A program made the translations under genes and the position numbers. A stretch of DNA of 64,000 nucleotides from contig OY282355.1 of NCBI GenBank assembly GCA_958295525.1, forward strand, positions 1,215,504-1,279,503. Reading direction: 5' to 3'. The stretch is from an uncultured Dehalococcoidia bacterium. Its GTDB lineage: Bacteria; Chloroflexota; Dehalococcoidia; Lucifugimonadales; Australimonadaceae. The notes under the pieces are model-generated. The model saw only the letters and a program-made list of their open reading frames with translations, was not told where the DNA came from and did no database searches. This document shows positions 14,394 to 18,520 of this stretch, piece after piece; position 1 is the first letter of the stretch; every line of letters starts with the position of its first letter.

Positions 14394-14461
14394 AGTGTCC
14401 GCTAACAACCCTCTCTTCGTCTACCCCTCGCGCCTTGCCCGTCGTTCCCGCCCCTGTATCG

Positions 14462-14830
14462 TCATTCCCGCGCAGGCGGGAATCTCGCGCCTCTGTATCG
14501 TCATTCCCGCGCAGGCGGGAATCTCGCGCCTCTGTATCGTCATTCCCGCGCAGGCGGGAATCCAGTCGGCGCGCAAGCGCCCCCTGTCCCGTCATTCCCG
14601 CGCAGGCGGGAATCCAGCCGGCGCCCCGCCATTCCCGCGCAGGCGGGAATCCAGCCGGCGCGCAGCGCCCCCTTGCCCGTCATTCCCGCGCAGGCGGGAA
14701 TCCAGTCGGCGCGCAGCGCCCCCTGTCCCGTCATTCCCGCGCAGGCGGGAATCCCGCCCCCTGTATCGTCATTCCTGCGGAGGCGGGAATCTCGCCCTCT
14801 TGCCCGTCATTCCCGCGCAGGCGGGAATCT
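14462..14830 (+). repeat. array of nine dRS3-like palindromes between pstC and pstS
   Basis: Nine ATTCCCGCGCAGGCGGGAAT-type palindromes, one with CCTGCGGA, occur at 36-52 bp spacing, all in the same orientation. A truncated half unit precedes them at about 14443. Linkers come in two recurring types, TCTCGC(G)CCTCTGTATC and CCAGTCGGCGCGCAGCGCCCCCTGTCC. The array covers nearly the whole 14394-14857 gap inside the pst operon, and RNA from it would form up to nine hairpins. Confidence 0.92.
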
Positions 14831-14857: not shown

Positions 14858-15877
14858 CTACGTGCCGTTCGCTTCCCTGACTGCGGCGGCCTTGTTCGCC
14901 GCGTAGACGCTCCGCGCGACGGGCACGTACCCAACCTCGGCGGTCAGTTCGTAGCCGTTGTCCATGTAGTACTCGACGAACGCCTGAACCTCGGGCCGTC
15001 GCAGGCTCGCCGTATTCACGTAGATGAACATCGGACGCGAGAGCGGCGAGTACGAGCCGTCCTCGATCGTCGCAGTCTCAGGCTCGACGCACCCGTCGCC
15101 GCCGTCCACCCCGACCGCCTTCAACATGCCCTGGTTCTCCTGATAGTAGGCGTAGCCGAAATACCCCAGCGCGCCGCGGTCCCCCGCGATGCCCTGCACC
15201 AGCACGTTGTCGTCCGCCGACGCCGTGTAGTCGGAGCGCGAGACCTGCGCGTCCCCGTTGATCTCCTCGGTGAAGTAGTCGAATGTGCCGGAGTCAGTGT
15301 CGGGGCCGTAGAGACGCAGCCGCTGATCGGGGAACCCTGCGCGGACTTGCGACCAGTTGTTGACGTCCGAGCCCGGCTTCCAGATGGCGTTGAGTTCCTC
15401 GACGGAGAGGCACTCGACGAAATCATTGGCCGGATTGACCATCACGGAGAGGCCGTCCGTGCCAACGCGCAATTCGATGAACCGGACGTTGTTCGCGGCG
15501 GCGGCCTCGCGCTCCCCATCCTTGATGGGGCGGGACGCGTCGGAGATGTCGGTTTCGCCGGTGGTGAAGCGCTTGAATCCGCCGCCGGTGCCGGAGACGC
15601 CGACGTTGATCTGAACGCCGGGCTGTCCCTTGCGGAACTCCTCGGCGACCGCCTGCGTGATGGGGAACACCGTCGATGAGCCGTCAACCTCTATCGTCCC
15701 GCTCAAACGCGCCGCCGGCGCCGTGGGCGCCGTCCCCGCAGACTGCGCTCCGCTGCTCGAAGAAGCCTGCGTCGGATCCGGCGTCGGCGCCGCGGAACTG
15801 CATGCCGCCGCGAAAACGGCGAACGCCGCCGCCGCCGACAACAGCGCGCCTATGCTGATGGGGCTCGTCAACCTCAT
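14858..15877 (-). CDS. pstS: phosphate ABC transporter substrate-binding lipoprotein PstS
   Basis: The 339-residue precursor has a lipoprotein signal peptide ending FAAAC at Cys26, then an Ala/Ser/Thr/Pro-rich linker (27-60). The binding domain starts GTIEVDGSSTVFPITQAVAEEF. Phosphate-contact segments are visible as DGSSTVFP, GVSGTGGGFKRFTTGETDISDASRPI and YGPDTDSGTFDYFTE. The protein binds phosphate outside the membrane and feeds PstAC. The start is supported by AAGGAGG just upstream. It is the first gene of the pst cluster but is separated from pstC by the repeat array. Confidence 0.96.
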   Translation of the reverse strand: MRLTSPISIGALLSAAAAFAVFAAACSSAAPTPDPTQASSSSGAQSAGTAPTAPAARLSGTIEVDGSSTVFPITQAVAEEFRKGQPGVQINVGVSGTGGGFKRFTTGETDISDASRPIKDGEREAAAANNVRFIELRVGTDGLSVMVNPANDFVECLSVEELNAIWKPGSDVNNWSQVRAGFPDQRLRLYGPDTDSGTFDYFTEEINGDAQVSRSDYTASADDNVLVQGIAGDRGALGYFGYAYYQENQGMLKAVGVDGGDGCVEPETATIEDGSYSPLSRPMFIYVNTASLRRPEVQAFVEYYMDNGYELTAEVGYVPVARSVYAANKAAAVREANGT

Positions 15878-15885
15878 TCCGCCTC

Positions 15886-15933
15886 CTTCTGCGTGGGGGT
15901 CCTCTATGTGAGGATTCCCCTGTGTGGGGATTC
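15886..15933 (-). promoter_or_regulatory. three imperfect 16-bp tandem copies in the pstS leader
   Basis: On the minus strand GAATCCCCACACAGGG and GAATCCTCACATAGAG are adjacent. A third, more diverged copy (GGACCCCCACGCAGAAGG) runs into the Shine-Dalgarno sequence. The two good copies also have internal inverted symmetry (CCCC/GGGG and CCTC/GAGG). TTAACG occurs on the plus strand at 15990 and 16023, 33 bp apart, inside ACGTTAACGT at 16020-16029. A role in phosphate control is conjecture. Confidence 0.45.
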
Positions 15934-16042
15934 CTCGCGCCGAGGCATCCGGGCGCGAGTATGCGCCATCCAGCGTAGACAACGGAGATTAACGCCAACC
16001 CGCCGCGCCGCTTATCGGAACGTTAACGTCGCCCGCCCCATC

Positions 16043-16064
16043 ATCATTCCCGCGCAGGCGGGAA
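16043..16064 (+). repeat. dRS3-like palindrome abutting the IS30 element
   Basis: CATTCCCGCGCAGGCGGGAA lies directly left of the IS terminal repeat. Read on the minus strand it gives FPPARE-stop, which terminates the transposase frame. Confidence 0.85.
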
Positions 16065-17054
16065 TGTGGATTCACATTTGAAGTGCAACAGTTCCGGCTG
16101 ACTCCAGAATACCTCAGCTGGCGTCCGGTAGCCCAACACTCCACGCGGCGTGTTGTTGTACCGCAGCGCGCACACCGCCAACTCCTCGTCCGTAACCTCC
16201 TTCAAGTTCGTCTTCCGCGGCAGCGACCGCCGCAGTCGACCTATCGCGTTCTCCACTCCTCCCTTCTGCCACGGCGACCTCACGTCGCAGAAGAACGTCT
16301 CAACCCCCAGCGCGTGCAACTCGTGATGCCGCGCAAACTCCGTCCCGTTGTCGAACGTCACGCTCCTCCGCATCTCCACAGGCAGCGTCCCCAGCACGCC
16401 CAACATCGCCTGCGCCACCGGCCCAGCCCCCTTGCTCTCCGGCCTCTGCACGATCGTCAGCCGCGACGCACGCTCGTGCAGAATCAGCAGCGCCTGCTTC
16501 CTCACCCCGAACAGCATCGTGTCCGCCTCCCAGTGCCCGAACTCAACCCGGTCCGCCGCCTCCACAGGCCGCTCCGACAGCGGGCGCCGGGCCTTGATGA
16601 ACGCGGCGGAACTCCGCCCCTTGCGCGAACGCAGCCCCCTCTTCGCCTTCTGCTTCGGCAGGAAGTTCCGCCAGTCGTAGTCCTTCTTCCTCTTCACCTG
16701 GGCGTAGACGAACCGGTAGATGCTCTCGTAGGAGATCACCGGCCTCTCCATCTCCAACGCCAAGCGCCCGGCCACTTGGGGCGGCGACGCTCCCCACACG
16801 AGCCGCCACAGCACGCTCTCCCGCAGCAGGTCGTCGCGGTCGAGGCGGGAGCCCCGCCACCGCCGCGCCTGCGCCTTCTCGTCCGCCTTGACGGGGTCGT
16901 ACGCGCCTGTGCTCAACCGGTTGCGCTTGATCTCGCGAGCAATCGTCGGTGGCGAGCGACCCAGATCTGTAGCGATCGACCTGATCGAGTCGCCCTTTTC
17001 GCGTAGGCGGGCAATCTCACGCCGCTCTTCGATTCCGATATGGCTGTATCCCAT
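16044..17054 (-). CDS. IS30-family transposase
   Basis: The 336-residue protein starts with an HTH region of the IS30 type (EERREIARLREKGDSIRSIATDLGRSPPTIAREIKRN). It continues with a DDE integrase-like catalytic domain: HWEADTM gives Asp1, SVTFDNGTEF gives Asp2 and WQKGGVENAIGRLRR gives the Glu. LRYNNTPRGVLGYRTPAEVF near the end is typical of the family. The frame appears intact. It has no stop inside the element: it reads through the left terminal repeat (HFKCEST) into the flanking palindrome and ends FPPARE-stop. Confidence 0.93.
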   Translation of the reverse strand: MGYSHIGIEERREIARLREKGDSIRSIATDLGRSPPTIAREIKRNRLSTGAYDPVKADEKAQARRWRGSRLDRDDLLRESVLWRLVWGASPPQVAGRLALEMERPVISYESIYRFVYAQVKRKKDYDWRNFLPKQKAKRGLRSRKGRSSAAFIKARRPLSERPVEAADRVEFGHWEADTMLFGVRKQALLILHERASRLTIVQRPESKGAGPVAQAMLGVLGTLPVEMRRSVTFDNGTEFARHHELHALGVETFFCDVRSPWQKGGVENAIGRLRRSLPRKTNLKEVTDEELAVCALRYNNTPRGVLGYRTPAEVFWSQPELLHFKCESTFPPARE

Positions 17055-17095
17055 GGCAGCGCCTTACTCTGGTGTTGCACTTCGTTTGTGAATCC
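16068..17095 (-). mobile_element. IS30-family insertion sequence
   Basis: A 1028-bp element bounded by 23-bp inverted terminal repeats that differ at three adjacent positions. The left end is GGATTCACA-TTT-GAAGTGCAACA (16068-16090). The right end, read inward, is GGATTCACA-AAC-GAAGTGCAACA (17073-17095). Left of it is an intact palindromic repeat; right of it is GAACCTCGCCCC, the usual sequence following such a palindrome. A short target duplication cannot be fixed; GT on each side is possible. Confidence 0.85.
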
Positions 17096-17125
17096 GGTGA
17101 ACCTCGCCCCCTGCCCCCGTCATTC

Positions 17126-17182
17126 CTGCGAAAGCAGGAACCTACTGGGGCCCGTCGTTCCCGCGCAGGCGGGAACCTCGTC
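17126..17182 (+). repeat. two dRS3-like palindromes right of the IS
   Basis: CATTCCTGCGAAAGCAGGAA followed by CCTACTGG, then GTTCCCGCGCAGGCGGGAA. They represent the two arm variants (CCTGC/GCAGG and CCCGC/GCGGG). Confidence 0.8.
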
Positions 17183-17227
17183 CCTTGCGGCGCGCCACGC
17201 TCCGCGTGGGAGTAGAATGCGCCCGTT

Positions 17228-18520
17228 ATGCTCGAACGCAACTTCTGGTTCAGAACCGCGATCGTCGTCGTCGCCTTCAGCGCGACCGTCTTCCTTGTCG
17301 ACACGCTTCGCCGCGTCTGGGACTTCCTCGGCGACCTCCTCCTCATCTTCTTCCTCGCCTACCTCGTGGGGTCGCTGATCATCCACACCGTACGGTCGCT
17401 GATGCGCGTGCCGGGGATGAAACGCCCTCTCGCCATCGCGCTCGTCTACGCGGTCCTCACCGGCATCGCCTCCGTGATGGGCTTCGTCGTCATTCCCGCC
17501 ACCATCACCCAAGCCGTCGAACTGGCCAACCTCGTCCCCACCTACATCGAACGCCTGCCGCAACTCGTCGACCGCGTAGAGGCGTACCTCGCCGGCTTCA
17601 ACATCAACGTAGACCTCGCGACGCTGATCCAGTACGACGCGCTCTCCAACTGGGGCGGCGCGCTGGGAGGCATCGTTCAGGACAACGCCGTCAACATCGC
17701 CCGGAACGTCGTCTCCATCGTCTTCTCAGTCTCGCTGGTGGTCGTCATCTCCTTCTACGTAGTGCTGGACGGCGGGCGCCGCCTGAACGAGGCGCTGAAA
17801 GTGCTGCCCCGCCGCGCCGAGCGCGAGACCCGCTTCGTCCTGCTGACTATCGACGAAACGTTCCGAGGCTACCTGCGCGGAATGGTGCTCGTCTCGATGA
17901 TCTACGGCGTCGGAACCGCCACCGTGATGCTCGCCACCGGGTTGCCCGCCGCGCTGCCCGTCGCGTTCGTCTCCAGCATCCTCCTCGCCGTCCCCTTCAT
18001 CGGCGACTGGCTCGCGCTCGCGCTCCCGCTCATCGTCGCGGCGGCCTCCGGCAACTTCATCACTCTGCTCACCGTGCTGCTCACGCTCCTGTTCGTCCAG
18101 CAAGTGATGCTGAACCTGCTGACGCCCCGCATTCTCGGACGCGCCGTGCGAATGCCCGCGATGCTCGTCGTCATCGCCGTGGTGCTAGGGGCGCGCCTCG
18201 CGGGCATCTCCGGAGCGCTGCTGGGCGTGCCGACGATGGGCGTCATCTACGCGCTCGCCGTGCACTACGGAATGATCATCCGCAAGCGGCGGGAAGTGCG
18301 CGAGCACGCGCGCATCCGGCAAAACCGCGCCGCGTCCGCCGCCCGCCAGCGCGCAACGGCGCAAGAAGCGCCTGCCGAGACGCCGCCGAACCGCAGCCTT
18401 CCCCAGTCGGGCGCATTCGCTCCCGCAGGCGCCGCGCCCGAGCCCGGCGAGCAGCCGTCCGACGGCGACGGCGATGAGGATGGCGATGAGAGAGGTAGGT
18501 TCCCGCCTACGCGGGAATGA
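17228..18520 (+). CDS. AI-2E/PerM-family membrane permease
   Basis: The 430-residue protein has about eight TM helices. Family features include TM pairs at 9-27 and 34-55, a soluble insertion at about 95-140 (VPTYIERLPQLVDRVEAYLAGFNIN) and ISFYVVLDGGRRL. The C-terminal block VPFIGDWLALALPLIVAA...VQQVMLNLLTPRILGRAVRMPAMLVVIAVVLGARLAGISGALLGVP is diagnostic. Members export small signals or ions; the substrate is not predictable. Residues 350-430 form a charged, disordered tail whose end (RGRFPPTRE-stop) is translated palindromic repeat. Confidence 0.9.
   Translation: MLERNFWFRTAIVVVAFSATVFLVDTLRRVWDFLGDLLLIFFLAYLVGSLIIHTVRSLMRVPGMKRPLAIALVYAVLTGIASVMGFVVIPATITQAVELANLVPTYIERLPQLVDRVEAYLAGFNINVDLATLIQYDALSNWGGALGGIVQDNAVNIARNVVSIVFSVSLVVVISFYVVLDGGRRLNEALKVLPRRAERETRFVLLTIDETFRGYLRGMVLVSMIYGVGTATVMLATGLPAALPVAFVSSILLAVPFIGDWLALALPLIVAAASGNFITLLTVLLTLLFVQQVMLNLLTPRILGRAVRMPAMLVVIAVVLGARLAGISGALLGVPTMGVIYALAVHYGMIIRKRREVREHARIRQNRAASAARQRATAQEAPAETPPNRSLPQSGAFAPAGAAPEPGEQPSDGDGDEDGDERGRFPPTRE

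Follow-up and report, generated by a model that had tools for sequence, protein, structure and literature searches.

The transposase genes of ISLxc2 and ISLxx4, IS481-family elements of Leifsonia xyli, have their stop codon in the host insertion site (PMC2516522). Other elements are tied to one kind of repeat: every copy of ISPsy8, ISPa11, ISPpu9, ISPpu10, ISRm22 and ISRm19 lies at one REP position, a "type 1 association", and IS1655 occurs with REPs in 2/13 and 2/6 copies only (PMC1525189). IS30 uses nearly palindromic hot spots and its own inverted repeats (IRs) as targets (PMC9333248). The CGTC-tagged REPs, which include dRS3 of Neisseria, "apparently lack a dedicated transposase" and are not linked to transposase genes; five phyla are named for them, among which neither Chloroflexota nor Nitrospirota appears (PMC3733652). 

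Here we describe an IS30-family insertion sequence (IS) that lies within a REP, apparently of the CGTC type, and whose gene ends there. The DNA studied, hereafter the window, is a stretch of 64,000 nt from an uncultured Dehalococcoidia bacterium (GCA_958295525.1, contig OY282355.1, positions 1,215,504–1,279,503, forward strand).

An IS30-family element inside a single REP

The features of the locus, in window coordinates and with their basis in brackets, are:

16041–16064, minus strand: larger part of the split REP, with stem TTCCCGC/GCGGGAA, loop CTGC and tag TGATG (sequence, full-element comparison)
16044–16046, minus strand: stop codon TGA, from the tag side of the REP (sequence, ORF translation, junction comparison)
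16044–17054, minus strand: transposase ORF, 336 aa, with the final six codons and the stop outside the IS (ORF translation)
16047–16064, minus strand: six codons supplied by the REP, FPPARE (sequence, ORF translation, junction comparison)
16062–16064, no strand: target duplication GAA, left copy; codon TTC (Phe) on the minus strand (sequence, full-element comparison)
16065–16089, plus strand: left inverted repeat TGTGGATTCACATTTGAAGTGCAAC, without a stop in the transposase frame (similar end at 133 junctions)
16065–17098, minus strand (transposase strand): insertion sequence of the IS30 family, 1034 bp (terminal repeats, target duplication of 3 bp, comparison across 47 full elements including this one)
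17074–17098, minus strand: right inverted repeat ACCGGATTCACAAACGAAGTGCAAC (sequence, comparison of full elements)
17099–17101, no strand: target duplication GAA, right copy (sequence, full-element comparison)
17099–17106, minus strand: remaining, shorter portion of the split REP, on its GAGGTTC side (sequence, full-element comparison)
17119–17175, minus strand: two more intact REPs adjoining the IS, a TGAC-type copy at 17119 and a CGAC-type copy at 17154 (sequence)

The transposase belongs to the IS30 family (NCBIfam NF033563, 214 bits, E 2.7e-63, cut-off 80), and Pfam HTH_38 is found at its N terminus. Members of this family, which transpose by way of minicircles or dimers in which the terminal repeats abut, have imperfect terminal repeats of ∼20–30 bp, a 2–3 bp duplication, a single ORF and a length of ∼1–1.2 kb, and the window IS, with its imperfect 25-bp terminal repeats (16065–16089 and 17074–17098), GAA duplication and 1034 bp, fits these ranges. 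The catalytic residues D178, D235 and E268 have 56 and 32 residues between them (33 from D to E counting the end residue), in agreement with the D-(54–61)-D-(33)-E motif of the family (PMC2516522).

As the initial annotation had proposed, the transposase frame crosses the left repeat without a stop and ends at a TGA in the adjacent palindrome, 18 nt outside the IS. Alignment with the other 46 full elements defines where the IS ends, and the 3′ end of the gene reads TTG CAC TTC AAA TGT GAA TCC ACA / TTC CCG CCT GCG CGG GAA TGA, where the slash marks the end of the IS, and the protein ends in LLHFKCEST-FPPARE. The window element thus contains no stop, which is read from target DNA instead.

Joining the flanks after removal of the IS and one GAA gives GGGGCGAGGTTCCCGCCTGCGCGGGAATGATGATG on the transposase strand, one uninterrupted copy of a REP that appears to be of the CGTC type. 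The sequence to the right of the IS (GAACCTCGCCCC) is the other half of the palindrome, as had been recognized. The IS had been placed inside or between repeat copies; since the flanks minus one GAA restore a single REP, it lies inside one copy and not between two.

CGTC-tagged REPs are described as having a stem of 8–9 bp, a loop of 4–5 nt, an unpaired CGTC at one end (with TGTC and CCTC as variants) and a tail near CCA (PMC3733652). The window REP, with a loop of 4 nt, departs from this consensus at some points. It has TGATG for the usual TGACG, giving the tag CATC in place of CGTC; the outermost pair of its TTCCCGC stem is broken, and its tail is GAGG rather than TGG. The TGATG form is represented by one of the 32 intact palindromes in the window (24 TGAC, 7 CGAC, 1 TGAT). 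The source genome has 863 REPs with TGAC and 147 with CGAC after the stem, as counted with a single stem pattern that includes IS-occupied copies. There were 0 matches to an Rfam element in 15500–17500.

The IS is situated directly upstream of a pstS-like gene on the same strand (window 14858–16064), and its transcription could run into the pst genes. An array of eight TGAC-type REPs at 14461–14827 separates apparent phosphate-transporter (pst) genes from the pstS-like gene, these names being assigned by eye from ORF translations. The array yields spurious ORFs rich in HSRAGGNP and FPRRRES.

Junctions and target geometry across genomes

A scan of a collection of genome contigs found 341 relatives. 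Among the best 80 of these 341, which were kept, many have matches that extend into the REP and finish around query residue 336; the matches reach this far because the targets of the relatives encode similar letters. Junctions were sought by the left end of the IS or by the transposase, independently of the target. The left-end search covered 41 genome entries, 21 of which were searched again (two entries, G005 and G251, list the same places, and the number of separate genomes is accordingly below 41), and 80 places were fetched. Its pattern admits no alternative base at fixed positions, so diverged ends are missed. Assignment of junctions to genomes was made by hand from the search tables. 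In total 135 junctions were found, 133 of them distinct after two with a common 40 nt downstream were dropped; these 133 are not independent, as one genome, G263, supplies 40 of them. Most genomes are metagenome bins, in which repeats break contigs. In G263, a Chloroflexota bin, the left-end junctions number at least 40 (L198–L237); almost all of them lie in REPs and many fall where a contig stops, an IS burst that fragments the assembly.

The proposal that one target serves as both landing site and gene end proves general. In 117 of the 133 distinct left-end junctions (37 genomes) the IS abuts a REP palindrome at one position and in one orientation, the 3′ end of the transposase gene pointing towards the REP loop in every case. 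The codon at +18 is TGA in 99/117, CGA in 16/117 and another codon in 2/117 of these REP junctions. At least one REP junction is present in 35 of the 37 genomes, and at least one TGA in 29. Of random places in the same loci, 4.0% reach the threshold for a palindrome of this register (5 or more of 7 pairs), 0.08% have 7 of 7 pairs, and 1.3% have TGA at +18; both the palindrome and the TGA at the junctions exceed chance. Readthrough into a REP stop is also seen in relatives from Chloroflexota, Nitrospirota, Binatota and Alphaproteobacteria. The strict left-end pattern is present in 4/199 genomes of one sphingomonad family, and the matches in viral contigs are three weak fragments.

Both junctions of the source genome (2/2) lie in REPs. 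The only other trace of the element there is a remnant (L002, G000:C1:1808607 onward) that keeps query residues 275–320 and the left repeat. It runs into a different REP copy (TTCCCGCGTAGGCGGGAATGACGG) in the same orientation, again with TGA at +18.

These data bear on the view that an ordinary IS30 element with a loose preference for palindromes landed in the window REP by chance. IS30 does use nearly palindromic hot spots (PMC9333248), the 863 TGAC-type and 147 CGAC-type REPs of the source genome offer plentiful targets, and one relative, L178, sits with a GGA duplication in the centre of an unrelated palindrome. However, the same point, orientation and spacing recur at 117/133 junctions in several phyla, including in the REP-poor genomes G253 (27 REPs) and G267 (11 REPs), which are targeted as well. 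We regard coincidence as a highly improbable explanation for the window. As a general account, chance landing is refuted by the 117/133 junctions.

Restored sites read TGGATTC^CCGCC....GGCGGGAATGACG, which places the insertion point four bases in from the palindrome edge on the tail side. The palindromic preference of IS30 that the initial annotation invoked is thus real for the family, but here it is the edge of a palindrome that is entered and not its centre. Joined flanks of full elements give intact REPs, most of which match the published description of CGTC-tagged REPs. The 3-bp duplication is perfect in 36 of 47 full elements, retains two bases in 4 and is absent in 7. In one element scored as lacking it (L195) the right end had been mislocated; CCC is present there, at the same site as L063, and the corrected figure is 37/47. 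Where the palindrome is 21 bp long, in sphingomonads, the insertion point moves by one base and TGA stays at +18 (12/12).

Insertions away from the palindrome, which the initial annotation had named as evidence against its reading, do occur but form a minority (16/133 junctions), and among full elements they mostly have no duplication: non-REP sites account for 5/7 full elements without a duplication versus 3/40 with one (Fisher P 0.0007). Because the duplication is mostly missing there, most non-REP full elements look like later rearrangements. L178, in G267, is a genuine exception: it has a GGA duplication and occupies the middle of CGACCGGGATCCGGTCG, which is palindromic but has no relation to the REP. 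As this insertion suggests, the clade to which these elements belong may keep the classical IS30 target mode.

The seven letters TGGATTC are common to the left repeat of the IS and the typical REP edge, and from this likeness it is possible that IS end and REP arm are related. By this reasoning the REP would be recognized since its arm copies the tip of the left repeat (TGTGGATTCAC), a form of the IR-targeting of IS30, which also inserts beside its own repeats (PMC9333248). However, three outgroup elements (L100, L104 and L111) share the GAATCCAC end yet abut no REP, the window REP has GAGGTTC at this position, and the REPs of sphingomonads and Bradyrhizobium have GGATCC, GGACCC or GGGTCC. We consider recognition through such a copy distinctly unlikely.

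Reading frames, stop loss and target choice

The three frames through the left repeat differ in outcome. The frame used for readthrough meets a stop at +18 in 98/117 REP junctions; another is stopped inside the repeat in 112/117; and the remaining one mostly runs on, with no stop within 36 nt in 86/117. Intact members use only the readthrough frame or the frame that stops inside the repeat. ORF integrity behind the junctions was checked for 81 proteins, 38 of which are readthrough by pattern. A tree was calculated from 45 of these 81 rows, the other 36 being near-identical, interrupted or shorter than 310 aa. In this 45-row tree all readthrough rows, L088 included, fall in one clade of 32 rows (support 99/98). 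The clade also contains the four rows whose stop is in the repeat, which form a group nested within it. The outgroup transposases have their own stops, before or in the repeat, and no REP abuts any of 11 candidate outgroup ends. A loose pattern gave these ends for 11 of the 13 outgroup elements, and the placement is doubtful for L116 and L119.

Copies with an internal stop, which the initial annotation had named as evidence against its reading, do occur, but as a minority, and they do not leave the REP. Four intact transposases stop inside the left repeat (L077, L082, L084 and L090), and all four are at the REP site; the REP copy of L077 is degenerate and falls below the automatic palindrome score. 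Among the 117 REP junctions are three (L084, L180 and L186) whose elements already meet a stop within their own repeat.

The stop is usually given but is not required, because CGA-type REPs are used too, in some cases with intact ORFs. In copies at such REPs the frame continues for a further 9 to more than 70 codons, and run-on tails are found on otherwise intact ORFs (L070 and L087). TGA is found at 1/8 junctions of G001 against a background of 63%, backgrounds being counted with the stem pattern used for the source genome, IS-occupied copies included. The CGA type makes up 7/8 junctions of G001 but 37% of its background (P 0.005), the reverse of what a preference for the stop would give. The TGA share is 0/5 against 38% in G270, while G005 leans to stop-bearing REPs (11/12 versus 70%, P 0.08). 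The stop as a strict requirement is rejected by the 16 junctions in CGA-type REPs and by the target choice of G001 and G270, and the partnership that had been envisaged, if taken as mutual dependence, is not supported on the same grounds. G001, a genome of the same genus (L160, L250–L257), uses mostly TTCCTGC...GCAGGAACGAC REPs even though its TGA-type REPs are more numerous, and its target subtype may have shifted.

Geometry, orientation, duplication, frame, stop position and distribution are all directly observed, and on this basis we consider it probable that fixed REP targeting made the element's own stop dispensable, a case of constructive neutral evolution in a clade of the IS30 family. 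Members of the clade insert at a single point of CGTC-tagged REPs, always in the same orientation and with a 3-bp duplication. Because this landing geometry is fixed, a TGA formed by the final base of the stem and the two leading bases of the tag on its GACG side lies exactly six codons past the IS end and in frame. Given such a landing site, the element's own stop would become dispensable and the frame would be free to run through the left repeat. Stop loss would have been neutral and would have followed REP targeting; the six extra residues presumably do nothing, and the transposase itself probably recognizes the REP. We note that REP targeting and readthrough appear at about the same node of the tree, such that loss of the stop could also have preceded the change of target or coincided with it.

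A role for the coupling is the less likely alternative, and one to which we give little weight. Here the REP stop and a hairpin crossed by the ribosome would allow well-formed, or damped, transposase to be made only from harmless intergenic copies, a self-licensing safe harbour. The REP hairpin does span the last transposase codons, with the TGA at its foot, and ribosomes are reported to stall at REPs that lie no more than 15 nt from a stop codon (PMC12306157). The predicted RNA fold of the window 3′ end is −18.8 kcal/mol (z −2.55), but those of two relatives are weaker (z −1.64 and −1.65). The shift of the insertion point in 12/12 of the 21-bp palindromes, seen in one sphingomonad group, keeps the frame and also fits frame selection, which counts against a neutral account, and the G005 junctions (P 0.08) lean the same way. 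Set against this, the elements of G001 and G270 multiplied in stop-less REPs, four sister elements with their own stop occupy the same kind of site, and intact ORFs carry run-on tails. An adaptive role is not supported by target choice, and neutral loss is the most economical account. We are similarly doubtful of a broader claim, in which the 3′ end of the gene has been ceded to a host repeat (stop, six residues and hairpin), the coupling regulates or licenses correctly inserted copies, and the clade is in addition the first lineage of transposases to be specialized for CGTC-tagged REPs, in several phyla.

Relation to described elements

REP-targeting ISs and target-supplied stops are each known, but we have not found their combination in print. 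An IS30 element dedicated to or completed by REPs was not found in the open literature searched. The REP-targeting ISs in the available text of PMC1525189 belong to the families IS3, IS110, IS4, IS256 and IS5, with no IS30 among them, and no REP-completed gene is reported there.

As in ISLxc2 and ISLxx4, the stop lies in the target and not in the element. In those elements, however, it falls within the short duplicated NCTAGN site (PMC2516522), whereas in the clade described here it is 18 nt out, past the 3-bp duplication and after six target-coded codons, and some targets are stop-less. Transposase C termini such as FPPARE, SRLSPG and PGSSPG are consequently target DNA and should not be annotated as a protein family signature. 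The natural copies (TGA, CGA, non-REP sites and sisters with their own stop) suffice to test whether the outsourced stop is neutral or regulatory.

The fixed position in the REP is shared with ISPsy8 and the other REP-targeting ISs. With IS30 and IS1655 the elements have in common the transposase family, a 2–3 bp duplication, nearly palindromic targets and terminal repeats; those two enter palindrome-like hot spots or IR-adjacent sites (PMC9333248), in contrast to the REP edge and single orientation used here. The targets mostly share stem, loop, tag and CCA tail with CGTC-tagged REPs and dRS3 (PMC3733652). REPs of this kind, reported in the same source as partnerless, are the main landing site of an IS30 clade in several phyla.
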